Part shown: piece after piece, positions 3,141-25,291 of the stretch | Layout of the letters: every line of letters starts with the position of its first letter | Numbering within the stretch: the stretch's first letter is position 1 | NCBI RefSeq assembly: GCF_016767175.1 | Contig: NZ_CP068564.1 | Location: 2,108,001 to 2,172,000 of the forward strand | Source: Keratinibaculum paraultunense | GTDB taxonomy: Bacteria; Bacillota; Clostridia; Tissierellales; Tepidimicrobiaceae | Length of the DNA stretch: 64,000 bases | Direction of reading: 5' to 3' | Notes under the pieces: generated by a model | Databases searched by the model: none | Seen by the model: only the letters and a program-made list of their open reading frames with translations | What the model was told of the DNA's origin: nothing | Program-made: the position numbers and the translations under genes

Positions 3141-3995
3141 CTACCTCCTCACGCTATAAACCATAATGTCTTCTAAACTTGCTTTTTCTATCAACACCTT
3201 ATCTCCAAATGTGTTTTTTATCTTGTCTAAATTATTGGTCAATCCTTCAAACCCAACTCTAGTTTCTCTTAATCCAATAAATTGCTTTCTAGTATTTTCA
3301 TCTAATAGGTCCATACCACCTTTTACTATGGCATAGCTCTCCATCACCCCATCCTTAGACTCTGAAAATACCACTTTTCCCTCATTGATGAAGGTTATAT
3401 AGTCTGCTATCTTCTCCAAATCCGTAGTTATATGAGTGGAAAAAAATATACTTTTGGTATCATCCTGGATAATGTTGTATAAAATATCCAATATCTCCCG
3501 TCTAAATACTGGATCCAACCCAGATGTAGGTTCATCCATGATTATTAAGTCAGCATTATGGGATAAGGCAACAGCTAATGAAAACTTCATCTTCATACCT
3601 TTAGATAGAGTTTTGATCTTTACCTTTGGATTTAGATCAAATTCTTTAATATAATAGTTAAACTGCTGTTCATCCCATCTTGAATAAAAGGAGGCTACTA
3701 TGTTTTTCATTTGATTGATAGTCAAATCTTCATAATAATAATTTTCATCATATACAAAGCCTATTCTATCCTTTATCTCCTTCTCGTATTTTACATGATC
3801 CTTACCAAATATATTAATCTCCCCACCATCTTTTTTGAGCAGATTCATTATAAGCTTTATAGTGGTACTTTTCCCTGCTCCATTAGGCCCTATAAACCCC
3901 ATTATATATCCAGGCTCCAATTTAAAACTAATGTCATCTAAAGTAAAATTTTTGAACTGTTTTCTCAAATTCTTAACTTTTAGAATATAATCCAT
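3141..3995 (-). CDS. ABC transporter ATP-binding protein (YtrB/BcrA-like)
   Basis: This 284-residue ATPase would energise the two permeases downstream. The Walker A motif GPNGAGKST is at about residues 36-44, the signature region is LSKGMKMKFSLA, the Walker B is LIIMDEPTSGLDP, and the H-loop is in FFSTHITTDLEKIADY. The signature reads LSKGM rather than LSGGQ, which is common in the BcrA/YtrB group of exporters. The C-terminal ~70 residues form the small accessory region usual in that group. The ATG at 3995 is two bases after the GntR stop codon and is preceded by GAGGAGG, so expression is tightly linked to the regulator. Confidence 0.88.
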   Translation of the reverse strand: MDYILKVKNLRKQFKNFTLDDISFKLEPGYIMGFIGPNGAGKSTTIKLIMNLLKKDGGEINIFGKDHVKYEKEIKDRIGFVYDENYYYEDLTINQMKNIVASFYSRWDEQQFNYYIKEFDLNPKVKIKTLSKGMKMKFSLAVALSHNADLIIMDEPTSGLDPVFRREILDILYNIIQDDTKSIFFSTHITTDLEKIADYITFINEGKVVFSESKDGVMESYAIVKGGMDLLDENTRKQFIGLRETRVGFEGLTNNLDKIKNTFGDKVLIEKASLEDIMVYSVRR

Positions 3996-20330: not shown

Positions 20331-21266
20331 TTATTTAATATCATTTTTAGTTTGATACCTCGATCCTTGACAAGAATTTCTCCTTTTTAATTCCTTATCT
20401 ATACCTGAAAGAACCCTTAATTTATCCAAAGACCATTTAGGTTTATACAATAAATTCTTCTTACCATCTCCTGTTAATCTATGAATTACCATCTCCTCTG
20501 GTAACATTTCTAAACCATCTACTACTAAAGATATATACTCCTCTCTACTAAGTATAGGAAAAGGATTTTTAATATAATATTCATATAAATCCGTTCCCTT
20601 TTGTATATATAATAAATGAAATTTAACTCCCCAAGTATTGGTATCAGCTACATATCTAACAGAATTTAATATATCTTCTCTAGATTCACCTGGCAATCCA
20701 AATATTAAATGAGTAACTATCTTTATATTTTTATCCTTTAACTCTTGTATAGCTTTATTGTAAATTTTCAAAGGGTATCCCCGTCTAATAAAATTACTAG
20801 TTCTTTCATGGATAGTTTGAAGACCTAATTCCACCCAAAGGTAAGTTTTTTGATTAATATTAGCTAAAAGCTCTAGCACATCTTTTGATAAACAGTCAGG
20901 TCTTGTAGCTATAGCTAATCCTACTACCCCGTCTTGAGAAAGAGCTTCATAATATTTTTTCTTCAAATCTTCAATAGAAGAATAAGTATTAGTAAAGTTT
21001 TGAAAATAAGCAATATATTTATCAGTATTCCATTTATTTGATAAAAGCCTTTTTTGCTCTTCAATTTGCTCTTTTATGCTTAAATTTCTAGAACCTGTAA
21101 ATTCACCAGCACCTTCCTCACCACAAAAAATACAACCTCTACATCCAATGGTTCCATCTCTGTTAGGACAGGTAAATCCCCCATCTAAAGATAATTTCAT
21201 AACTTTTTTCCCAAATTGTTTTCTCAATTCATAATTTAAAGTATGATATCTTTTATCTCCCCACAT
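20331..21266 (-). CDS. Radical SAM protein, TIGR01212/YtqA family
   Basis: A 311-residue radical SAM enzyme. Its cluster-binding region is unusual: CPNRDGTIGCRGCIFC, in which the cysteines are spaced as in the YtqA/YhcC group (Elp3-like core) rather than simple CxxxCxxC. Later motifs are IATRPDCLS, WVELGLQTIH and HLIFGLPGE, all typical of that family. The biochemical reaction is not firmly established for the family. The ATG at 21266 follows AAGGA by nine bases; a TTG at 21275 is in frame but less likely. It stands alone with its own terminator. Confidence 0.87.
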   Translation of the reverse strand: MWGDKRYHTLNYELRKQFGKKVMKLSLDGGFTCPNRDGTIGCRGCIFCGEEGAGEFTGSRNLSIKEQIEEQKRLLSNKWNTDKYIAYFQNFTNTYSSIEDLKKKYYEALSQDGVVGLAIATRPDCLSKDVLELLANINQKTYLWVELGLQTIHERTSNFIRRGYPLKIYNKAIQELKDKNIKIVTHLIFGLPGESREDILNSVRYVADTNTWGVKFHLLYIQKGTDLYEYYIKNPFPILSREEYISLVVDGLEMLPEEMVIHRLTGDGKKNLLYKPKWSLDKLRVLSGIDKELKRRNSCQGSRYQTKNDIK

Positions 21267-21423
21267 TATAGTCAATCCTTATTATGTTTAGAAAAGTATA
21301 TTTTTTAAGTTTACTACTTTCGCTTTTTATATATTTTATGTATTTATATTCTCTATATATTATAGTACCATATTTTATATATGTACAATGGACTTTTTAC
21401 CATTCATTTATAAAATCAATATA

Positions 21424-22536
21424 TTACTTATTTTTCCCATCTTTAATAACAGTTTGAATACATTTATCTTTATTAAAATCTTCATAATAAGTAGCATCTA
21501 CTTGGATATGGGGAATCGTTTTTGTTTCCATATTTATTGTACCATCTTGATTTATCCCTAATTCTCTACTATATCTAACTGCAAATTTGCTTTTTGGTAG
21601 AAAAGTAATGGGAATTTCTTCGAAAACTCTGCCTCCACCAGTAACTTCTCCAACTAATGTTGCAAAGCCTGTATCTTTAGCAAAAGAAGCAAATTTTTCA
21701 GCAGCTGAAAAAACATTCCTATCTACTAACAAATATATCTTCCCCTTAAAGTCTATATTCTCTTCAAAGTTTTCTTCAAGATTATGGTAAGCATCCAGTG
21801 AATTTATATCAATAGAATAGGTCTTGTAAAAATCAAAATCTGTTTTTACTTCTTCTGGGAATTTACATAGTACTTTTTCATCTAATTGTTGAATAGTAGT
21901 TAAATTTTGAACTCTAAATGGATCATATTTATATCTATGCCCATCTTTAAAAAATGCATAATATTTAGCATTTAAAGGTTTATCAATCAGTAATTTTACA
22001 ATGTTTTCCCAATAGACATCAAATCCTTCATCATTACCCCTTATATCGATAATTAGTTTTTCGTAATCCTCTACTTCTTTTAAAAATTCCTTTATTTTAC
22101 CATAATCCTCCTCAGCAACATCAAAACCAGCCATTTTTTTAATTTTCATATACGCTATTTTATCCTCTATTAATATATCAGTTTCTAAAACAGGTTCTTT
22201 ATATAATTGAATGTTTTCTATATTTCCATCAAATTGATATCTATACATAACATAAGGACTAGAAAAAGTATCAAACCAAAAGAAGTCCTTGAAGTTTTCA
22301 CTTTCAGCAAAGGATAAATAATAGGACTTAAAAAACTTTCTAAAATCTTCCCCTTCTAAAATATTCGTGTAGCCGTCATTTAAGTCCCCCAGTATCCTTT
22401 CCATAGCCACTAAAAATTCTGCATCGTTTTTTGTATTTCTAATTATCCTTTTGTATTTTCCTTTATTTCCTAACCAATCTACACCATGTAGCCTTTGGTT
22501 TACTAAAATAATAGCCTTGAGCTTTATCACATCCAA
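21424..22536 (-). pseudogene. S41 family peptidase, 5'-truncated by a deletion
   Basis: The reading frame from about 22512 down to 21424 encodes a tail-specific-protease-like S41 peptidase. LHGVDWLGNKGKYKRII and MERILGDLNDGYTNILEG lie at the front, DIRGNDEGFD in the middle, and the catalytic-serine segment VDRNVFSAAEKFASFAKDTG near residue 285. The expected signal peptide and first ~60-80 residues are missing. The frame instead runs in from the 3' end of the EAL gene in a different frame; the only in-frame ATG (22536) lies in EAL-derived DNA. A secreted enzyme without its signal would not reach its site, so it is likely nonfunctional. Confidence 0.7.
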
Positions 22537-24691
22537 TTTTCTTTAGTATATCAAGTTGTTCCTTAGTTTCTACGCCTTCAGCTGTTACCAATATATCAAA
22601 TTGCTTAGCTAATACTGTTATGGTTCTTGAAATAGCTCTATTTTTTTCATTAGTTTCTATATCCCATATAAAAGCTCTATCTATCTTAATTTCATTAATA
22701 CTCATTTCTCTTAAATATTTTAAACTAGAATAGCCTGTGCCAAAATCATCCATAATTACAGATACCCCTAATTGTTTTAGTCTATTTAATACATCTATAG
22801 TATATTCAATATCTGATATGGCAGTAGTTTCTGTTATCTCTAGCCCTAGATATTCAGGTTCTAATCCTGTTTCTTCTAGTATGTTAGATACTGTATCTAA
22901 AAAATTATAATATTGAAATTGTCTAGCTGATATATTAACTGATATCCTTCTAGGTTTATAACCCTTTTGAATCCATTCTTTGTTTTGCCTACAAGCCTCC
23001 CTTAGTACCCATTCTCCAATAGGCACTATTAATCCTGTATCTTCCGCTAATGGAATAAACTTATCTGGAAATACCAATCCCCTTTTAGGATTGTTCCAGC
23101 GAATTAATGCTTCCATGCCAATTATCTTTTCCCTTTTAATATCTATTTTAGGTTGATAATATAATACAAATTCTTCATTATTTACTGCTTGTCTCAATTC
23201 ATTTAACATAGTTAAATTTTCATATTCCTTTATACCAATTGTTTCATCATATATAAAATAGCTATTTCCCCCTACATCCTTAGCTCTATATAAAGCAGCT
23301 TCTGCATTTTTTATTAAAGATGAACTAGTAATCCCTGCCTCTGGATATACTGCTATACCTATACTTGTAGTTAAATATAATTTATATCCTTCAACTATTA
23401 AAGGCTGCTTAAAATCTTCAATTATTCTTTTAGCTACATCAACAGCTTCGCCTTCATCCATTAAATCCTTTATAAGTATAAAAAATCCATCCCCTTCACC
23501 TCTTGCTATTAAATTTCCTTCACCAATTAATTTCTCTAATCTTAATCCAATTAATCTTAAAATTTCATCTCCTATATCATGACCCAATGTATTATTTATA
23601 TGTTTAAATTTATCTAAATTTAAGTACAACACTGCTAATTTTATATTTTTATCTATATTCTTATTTAATTCTTCGATAAAATACAATCTATTAGGAAGAG
23701 ATGTTTTTGGATCAAAATAGGCAAGTCTATATATCTCCTGTTGTTGCATCATCAAGTTTTTATTTGCAATTTCCAATTCATTGGTTCTTTTAGATACTTC
23801 AATTTTAAGTTTTTTATTCCAATAGTATAATCCTAATATAATAATGGTAATTATCAATAGTATTATAAATATCTCTTTGATATAACCTAATAACATAAAT
23901 CTTCCAAAGGACAATTCATCTCCAAACCATTTTTTATATATCTTATCATAAGTACCATCTTCTTTTATTTTATCTATACCAGCATTCAATAACTCATATA
24001 CCTCTTCATTTCCTTTATATGTTACAGGACCATAAGCTGTTTCCCCTATAGGCATACCAACTATTTTCACTTTATTAGTTTCTTTCATCTTATTTAACTG
24101 ATATATAGCAGCTATCTTGTTACCTATAAAAGCATCAACTTCTCCATCTAACAAAGCCTTAATCCCTTCCAATTGATTATATCTTGGTACCATAATTGCA
24201 CCAGATATATCCTTGATTCTATCTTCATTTATATCTCCTATCTGATAAGCTACTCTTACTCCTTTTAAATCTTCTATATCTTTTATATGTTCTGTATCTT
24301 TTCTTACAAATATAGCACTGGAATTAATAATAGTAGATTGAGTAAAAAGATATTTTCCCTCTCTCTCAGGAGTTCTAGACATACCTTGAATAGCATCTAC
24401 ATAATGATTTTCAAGAGCAGAAACTGCCTCTGACCATTTCATAGGAATCAATTGGATTTCTACGTTCATAGTTTCACTTATGGCTTTCATTATATCTACA
24501 TTAAATCCTTTATAATTACCTTTATCATCCACAAATTCATAAGGAGGAAAATTATTATCCCCAGCAACTTTTATTTTAAATTTATTTTCATCTTTAATAA
24601 ACTCATATGCTTCAGAGTTTTTATAATTATAAAATAGCAAAATACAAACAACAATAAGTATAATGCTAAGTATTTTTTGCTTTCTATGCAT
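22463..24691 (-). CDS. Sensor with periplasmic-type solute-binding, degenerate GGDEF and EAL domains
   Basis: A 742-residue membrane c-di-GMP enzyme. After a signal-anchor helix (about 6-22) comes an SBP_bac_3 amino-acid-binding-like domain (about 35-255; NFPPYEFVDDKGNYKGFNVD), a transmembrane helix (about 265-290), a GGDEF domain whose motif reads EGDGF and is probably inactive, and an EAL domain with GMEALIRW, ETTAIS, DDFGTGYSSLKYL and EGVETKEQL. It is therefore a likely phosphodiesterase controlled by an external ligand. The C-terminus is altered: after AQGYYFSKP the frame reads KATWCRLVRK from the deleted S41 gene. The ATG at 24691 has GAGG nine bases upstream. Confidence 0.88.
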   Translation of the reverse strand: MHRKQKILSIILIVVCILLFYNYKNSEAYEFIKDENKFKIKVAGDNNFPPYEFVDDKGNYKGFNVDIMKAISETMNVEIQLIPMKWSEAVSALENHYVDAIQGMSRTPEREGKYLFTQSTIINSSAIFVRKDTEHIKDIEDLKGVRVAYQIGDINEDRIKDISGAIMVPRYNQLEGIKALLDGEVDAFIGNKIAAIYQLNKMKETNKVKIVGMPIGETAYGPVTYKGNEEVYELLNAGIDKIKEDGTYDKIYKKWFGDELSFGRFMLLGYIKEIFIILLIITIIILGLYYWNKKLKIEVSKRTNELEIANKNLMMQQQEIYRLAYFDPKTSLPNRLYFIEELNKNIDKNIKLAVLYLNLDKFKHINNTLGHDIGDEILRLIGLRLEKLIGEGNLIARGEGDGFFILIKDLMDEGEAVDVAKRIIEDFKQPLIVEGYKLYLTTSIGIAVYPEAGITSSSLIKNAEAALYRAKDVGGNSYFIYDETIGIKEYENLTMLNELRQAVNNEEFVLYYQPKIDIKREKIIGMEALIRWNNPKRGLVFPDKFIPLAEDTGLIVPIGEWVLREACRQNKEWIQKGYKPRRISVNISARQFQYYNFLDTVSNILEETGLEPEYLGLEITETTAISDIEYTIDVLNRLKQLGVSVIMDDFGTGYSSLKYLREMSINEIKIDRAFIWDIETNEKNRAISRTITVLAKQFDILVTAEGVETKEQLDILKKIGCDKAQGYYFSKPKATWCRLVRK

Positions 24692-24946
24692 TTCACTCAT
24701 CCTCAATAATATAAACCTACTTATCATTAAGTTATAAGCTTATTCTCTTTATACCCAATTATCTAGTAACATACTAGCCTTCCAAATAATTGTTATTAAA
24801 AAATAGTTAAAAACATATCCAAATAATTTATATTTATATAATCAATTATGATAACTAACAGTAACATTAGTCAATAGTTCCTTTGCTTCATTCTTAATAT
24901 TGTGATATTATAATAAAAAGTAATTTATTTTAGAAAGGATTTTAAA

Positions 24947-25291
24947 ATGAAAATACTAGGATTCATAACAACTGTTTTCCTATTGATTTACCTATTTGTT
25001 AATAGAAACATACCAATTGTTTTAAATTTAGCCAATGGAACTTTTATTATAGGTCTAATATATTTTCTTATAGCTCTTATATTTTACGTCCGAAATGTTG
25101 GCTTTTTTAAACTTATTAGCTACCATAAATATAAAAAAAACCAATTAAAAACTGTTACCAATCATGAAGATATATTGAAATTTCATGAATTTTGTAAAAA
25201 ACATTATAAAGAAAAATGGTCTAATAAAGAGTTTTTTGTATTTGGCATTTCACTCTTGATTCTATCCTATATATTAGCATATTTTGCTTAA
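24947..25291 (+). CDS. Small membrane protein, DUF3899-like
   Basis: A 114-residue protein with two N-terminal transmembrane helices (about 4-19 and 28-48), a basic cytosolic middle segment (SYHKYKKNQLK) and a C-terminal helix. The layout and the RNVGFF segment resemble DUF3899 proteins of Firmicutes, which have no known function. It follows AGAAAGGATT. It is a single gene convergent with the DEAD-box helicase. Confidence 0.65.
   Translation: MKILGFITTVFLLIYLFVNRNIPIVLNLANGTFIIGLIYFLIALIFYVRNVGFFKLISYHKYKKNQLKTVTNHEDILKFHEFCKKHYKEKWSNKEFFVFGISLLILSYILAYFA

Follow-up and report, generated by a model that had tools for sequence, protein, structure and literature searches.

Does the out-of-frame overlap between a predicted c-di-GMP phosphodiesterase gene and an S41 peptidase gene in this genome record a deletion that joined two formerly separate genes, and what would such an event have left of the two products? 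The window, by which we mean the whole 64,000-nucleotide stretch analysed here, covers bases 2108001-2172000 of a genome assembled as one contig of 2,307,997 bases. A preliminary description had proposed that a deletion joined the EAL gene to the S41 gene at about 22490-22512, with a few bases shared between them. We compared the locus (Table 1) with its counterparts in related genomes and weighed what each of the two genes may still encode.

Table 1. Features of the EAL-S41 junction in the window and of the corresponding tandem genes in the same-genus genome G001 (locus L052).
Feature	Position	Strand	Evidence or remark
SBP_bac_3-GGDEF-EAL gene, 754 aa, predicted c-di-GMP phosphodiesterase with new 10-residue tail	22463..24727	(-)	ORF, Pfam
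Newly acquired C-terminal codons (KATWCRLVRK + TAA), peptidase DNA in origin, in another frame	22463..22495	(-)	ORF, BLASTN
Junction of the deletion, with 459 bp of G001 absent	22494..22504	(-)	BLASTN
S41 peptidase remnant, 359 codons + stop, matching G001 protein residues 79-432	21424..22503	(-)	ORF, Pfam, BLASTN
Out-of-frame overlap of both open frames, from S41-frame TTG to EAL stop	22463..22536	(-)	ORF
Earliest ATG in frame with S41, 58 nt past the EAL stop	22402..22404	(-)	sequence; inference
G001 EAL gene	L052 1036-3276	same strand as S41	
G001 terminator-like hairpin	L052 3275-3303		1 found, mean 0.1 in shuffles
G001 S41 gene	ATG L052 3458, stop 4756		AAAGGAGG before ATG, by eye

The overlapping frames of the preliminary description are borne out by the open reading frames, by Pfam and by two blocks of BLASTN similarity. 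The 754-aa frame matches SBP_bac_3, GGDEF and a full-length EAL domain, and the frame overlapping it matches Peptidase_S41. The EAL protein runs to AQGYYFSKP and then reads KATWCRLVRK, its frame spanning the junction and entering former S41 DNA for 10 codons; no stop interrupts the S41 frame between a TTG at 22536 and its end at 21424, with peptidase similarity from VNQRLHGVDWLG (22503) onward. The interval 22463-22536, under which the event had been recorded, corresponds to the frame overlap, and the actual junction lies inside it.

The decisive comparison is with G001 (contig JAAYFV010000177.1), the sole other genome of the genus that was compared. Window 22800..22201 (minus strand) gave two BLASTN blocks on G001, one at the 3' end of the EAL gene (283/306 identical) and one in the S41 gene (236/295), and because these blocks meet at the junction, the overlapping frames are not a matter of chance. 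EAL-side similarity stops at 22495 and S41-side similarity starts at 22503, which places the junction within 22494-22504, inside the range first proposed; window position 22503 corresponds to L052 3233 in the EAL block and to 3692 in the S41 block, 459 bp apart. The separate, complete genes that had been suggested as a check are both present in G001, where they are whole, neighbouring and in tandem on one strand, 459 bp further apart than in the window, in agreement with a deletion. Relative to G001, the EAL protein has lost 11 residues (IPKEEFEKLLD) and gained 10, and the deleted stretch in G001 coordinates also comprises the EAL stop, the hairpin, 181 bp of intergenic DNA and the S41 start with 78 of the 432 peptidase residues. 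The G001 peptidase gene has its own ribosome-binding site and a hydrophobic N-terminus (both by eye). A search of window 21200-24950 for terminator-like sites found 0, compared with 0.8 in shuffles.

We read separate EAL and S41 genes as the ancestral state because, besides the whole tandem genes of G001, a genome of another genus in the same family (G011) has an EAL tail of the G001 type, a hairpin with identical letters and, 4.6 kb downstream of the EAL gene on the same strand and with other genes between, a complete S41 gene. Two overlapping searches listed S41 matches, one in 24 of 41 genomes and one in 14 of 20, the window's own genome counted. From the first we assembled a set of the window and 14 sequences, excluding G006 and G020 as well as weak hits and short fragments. 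The junction is absent from all 14 relatives (13 genomes) when they are read upstream: each has a native N-terminus, with 64-116 open codons upstream of the position of the window's first remnant codon. Relatives sharing the junction and having a full-length, expressed peptidase, which the preliminary description had named as counter-evidence, were thus not encountered in this set. A scan of genome contigs with the remnant returned 1 locus, the G001 contig, and no second strain.

These observations also bear on the readings in which no deletion took place in this lineage. The reading that the fused state came first and that the extra DNA was acquired by G001 has, in our judgement, practically no chance of being right: what G001 has in addition corresponds precisely to the 3' end of one gene plus the 5' end of the other, the similar EAL tail and identical hairpin recur in G011, the upstream codons are open in all 14 S41 relatives, and none of these comparisons yielded evidence in its favour. 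An assembly error, whereby the 459 bp would be present in the organism and dropped from the assembly, is very unlikely. The genome is one contig, 100% complete and 0.25% contaminated; the direct repeats listed within G001 3200-3720 are short (exact ones of <=9 nt, inexact ones of <=18 nt at 72%), and none of them joins both breakpoints; and the stretch from EAL to S41 is colinear with G001, though the genomes differ further out. Translocation of the lost piece was also considered and is disfavoured because a 481-bp G001 stretch surrounding the lost DNA, searched against the window's genome, gave no convincing hit at any other place (the best of 44 matches at E up to 10 had E 0.006 over 36 bases).

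Beyond the S41 gene, G001 carries a 122-aa ORF between the S41 and LysM genes (L052:4757-5767) that, by eye, resembles part of an ABC transporter permease; its position is taken in the window by a radical SAM gene (20331-21275), so that the two genomes differ here too.

How the ends were joined is less clear-cut. The 8-base microhomology GTAAACCA put forward in the preliminary description is not established. The window reads GTA AAC CAA AGG on the peptidase side of the junction, and the CAA (Gln) codon that would complete the proposed repeat on that side is absent from all 14 relative sequences, which encode Glu (5) or Lys (9) there; the EAL side in G001 reads AAACCAATT. The CCAA may derive from the EAL gene, with two or so bases shared, or else the peptidase codon may have changed earlier. 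Since no relative has a peptidase-side CAA, the shared stretch may fall anywhere in a range of about 2 to 9 bases.

It had been suggested that the EAL enzyme may survive the event, and the comparisons favour this. Pfam matches the domain over 2-236 of 236 (E 1.9e-75), and residues 500-744 are identical to G001 at 225 of 245 positions (92%), with 110/160 identical in the GGDEF domain and 167/228 in the binding domain. The motifs EAL, DDFGTGYS and EITET, which we take to be the catalytic motifs of the domain, are retained in an alignment with relatives from which G011, G003 and G019 were excluded, their genes being broken or having an internal stop. Because the EAL domain is whole, the phosphodiesterase with its swapped tail is probably active, and we infer that the new tail is tolerated; the likeliest role of the protein would be that of a ligand-sensing phosphodiesterase that still works. 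The tail itself is unlike those of all 10 other EAL genes compared, in which FS(K/R/E)P is followed by 8-16 residues starting with IP, VP or VS. A structure model of the window's EAL domain (mean pLDDT 63, last 12 residues <50) is uninformative on the new tail. The 754-aa protein carries the sole EAL domain that Pfam finds in the whole genome, and the replacement of its tail is a natural test of how much C-terminal sequence an EAL enzyme requires.

The GGDEF domain of the same protein, still matched by Pfam, reads EGDGF at the active-site motif, where six of seven aligned relatives, G001 among them, read GGDEY and one SGDEY; the cyclase site thus looks degenerate in the only EAL protein that Pfam detects in the genome. 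Separately, the EAL orthologue of G011 is broken too (L053:7187-8486): a 179-aa binding-domain ORF overlaps a 268-aa EAL ORF out of frame, and the GGDEF part is missing.

The peptidase remnant preserves a long reading frame, 359 codons free of stops and frameshifts, and matches Pfam Peptidase_S41 over 1-164 of 165. What it lacks is residues 1-78 of the G001 protein, and with them an export signal or anchor and a complete N-terminal region: by eye the lost part is a hydrophobic anchor and a linker, followed by approximately the first third of a weak Tricorn_C1 match (residues 57-116 of the G001 protein, 22.5 bits and thus below the Pfam cut-off of 24), which is cut at residue 79. The earlier statement that the peptidase had lost its signal peptide and first domain therefore stands for the hydrophobic anchor but not for the first domain, which is cut with the rest kept.

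The conserved S41 motifs are also not all preserved. From tricorn protease, we assume the His, Gly-Gly and Ser motifs to be catalytic. The remnant keeps the Ser, has Tyr for the His of L-N-x-G-H-T (His in 13 of 15 aligned sequences) and has Glu for a Gly of IRGNxGG (Gly in 14/14 others). In the four alignments listed to solved S41 relatives, based on a protein alignment of the window and 10 of the 14 relatives, the Gly is kept in 4/4 and the His in all three that cover that position. At 53 otherwise invariant columns the remnant shows 2 breaks (the Gly, and a Pro to Ser change) and the other sequences 0 to 7, a count by which the window copy is unremarkable. Changed motif residues alone do not amount to a lost gene, because the S41 proteins of G001 and G016 are full-length and yet carry Gly where the others have the Ser of S-x-x-E, and that of G016 is also without the His. 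A structure model of the G001 S41 protein was discarded (mean pLDDT 39).

Those two proteins (L003, L007) are possibly inactive members of the family in their own right. Short partial S41-family matches recur in the bacterial family (G003, G004, G007, G010, G016 and G019) as fragments or local matches. In the window's genome, Pfam finds four S41 matches: two strong ones (415 and 384 open codons), the remnant, and a second paralogue shortened at its N-terminus. This last lies at about 498380-499290 of C1 in the same genome (L064:1881-2789), head to head with a methyltransferase ORF whose beginning coincides with its VLDVGCGTG motif. Over 960 bp the DNA of this paralogue shares 98.96% identity with G005, from another genus, and over 2404 bp it shares 90.9% with G015, both matches ending at L064:2783; this looks like a recent transfer (or contaminated G005 and G015 drafts) together with a second truncating junction.

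Selection on the two genes was estimated with a codon model in our own Python code (F3x4, four taxa, topology assumed), in which branches are near saturation and the omegas therefore rough. On the S41 remnant branch, omega is 0.105 compared with 0.072 elsewhere, a difference that is not significant (2 x delta lnL 0.9), and a value of 1 can be rejected (2 x delta lnL 14.5). No decay is seen as a change of rate; therefore either the deletion is recent or the remnant is still constrained. In the EAL gene, the window branch has omega 0.164 against 0.045 for the rest (2 x delta lnL 14.3), and when the G001 branch is freed as well, both members of the genus come to 0.10, so the increase is not specific to the window.

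The remaining question is whether the overlap works as a gene pair, with the remnant translated as a cytoplasmic protein by coupling or from its TTG, GTG or ATG starts. Its intact frame of 359 codons and an omega well below 1 speak for this reading, as does the loss of the intergenic hairpin, by which both genes are probably placed on one transcript. Against it, no clear Shine-Dalgarno sequence or other ribosome-binding site was seen by eye before the starts of the remnant; the first ATG, with a GTG nearby at 22410, comes well after the EAL stop; the conserved His and Gly are altered; and the omega is an average over the entire branch back to the divergence from G001, the greater part of which may be older than the deletion. 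We consider a functional overlap improbable, with a small chance of being right, and smaller still is the chance of the fuller version, a working overlapping pair in which the only EAL phosphodiesterase, with its new tail, is co-transcribed with a formerly membrane-anchored protease that has a new role in the cytoplasm. The early view of the peptidase as probably dead thus holds, open frame notwithstanding: the remnant is probably not a working enzyme because it is without a proper start or export signal, and probably dead because the anchor is absent and the conserved His and Gly are changed. Most likely no functional enzyme is produced from it, which would make it a young pseudogene.

Taken together, it is very probable that one deletion fused the two genes out of frame, leaving the EAL enzyme probably active and the peptidase probably dead. 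Comparison with G001 shows that in this lineage one short deletion, of 459 bp on the G001 scale, took the last 11 EAL codons, the stop codon, the terminator-like hairpin and the intergenic region and, in the same event, the S41 gene's ribosome-binding site and start together with its first 78 codons. The EAL frame now ends 10 codons later, out of frame in former peptidase DNA, and with the hairpin gone the remnant probably belongs to the EAL transcription unit. The event is ordinary genome decay, the loss of about 460 bases running a signalling-enzyme gene into a protease gene. It also illustrates cleanly what a short deletion can do: one gene is brought to an end, another receives a new tail, and the two are probably placed under common transcription, while the ancestral arrangement can still be seen intact within the genus.

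Within the bacterial family, the SBP_bac_3-GGDEF-EAL proteins of G001, G005, G012, G013, G015 and G017 match the window's protein over nearly its whole length with 62-77% identity, from which it differs in lacking the native IPxEEFEKLL-like tail and in its degenerate GGDEF motif. The S41 (tricorn/IRBP-like) peptidases with a hydrophobic N-terminus (G001, G011 and G004) are 68-77% identical over the retained part, whereas the remnant lacks the N-terminal 78 residues and has changes at the motif His and Gly.

Parallels exist outside the family as well. Same-strand gene overlaps that arise through a 3' extension of the upstream gene are treated in the relevant passages of Fonseca et al. 2013 (PMC3887535); as in those cases, the upstream stop is lost here and the next one lies inside the downstream gene in another phase, but the cause is a deletion instead of a point mutation, and the start of the downstream gene is lost too. 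Closer still are the deletion-born fusion genes covered in the corresponding part of a bioRxiv preprint by Kaul et al. 2026 (PMC12803068), which include mlaE-htpX of the Mycobacterium bovis split, a fusion whose ancestral split state is known and which its authors judged not immediately functional. As described there, the deletion ends in two genes and combines the frame of the 5' gene with an out-of-frame fragment of the 3' gene. Unlike mlaE-htpX, the upstream EAL gene keeps its whole catalytic domain, with only a 10-residue tail that is new, and the downstream S41 gene retains a long open frame in which the Pfam catalytic domain is complete. The EAL-S41 junction is a deletion-born out-of-frame fusion of a kind already described, and adds one more instance of it.
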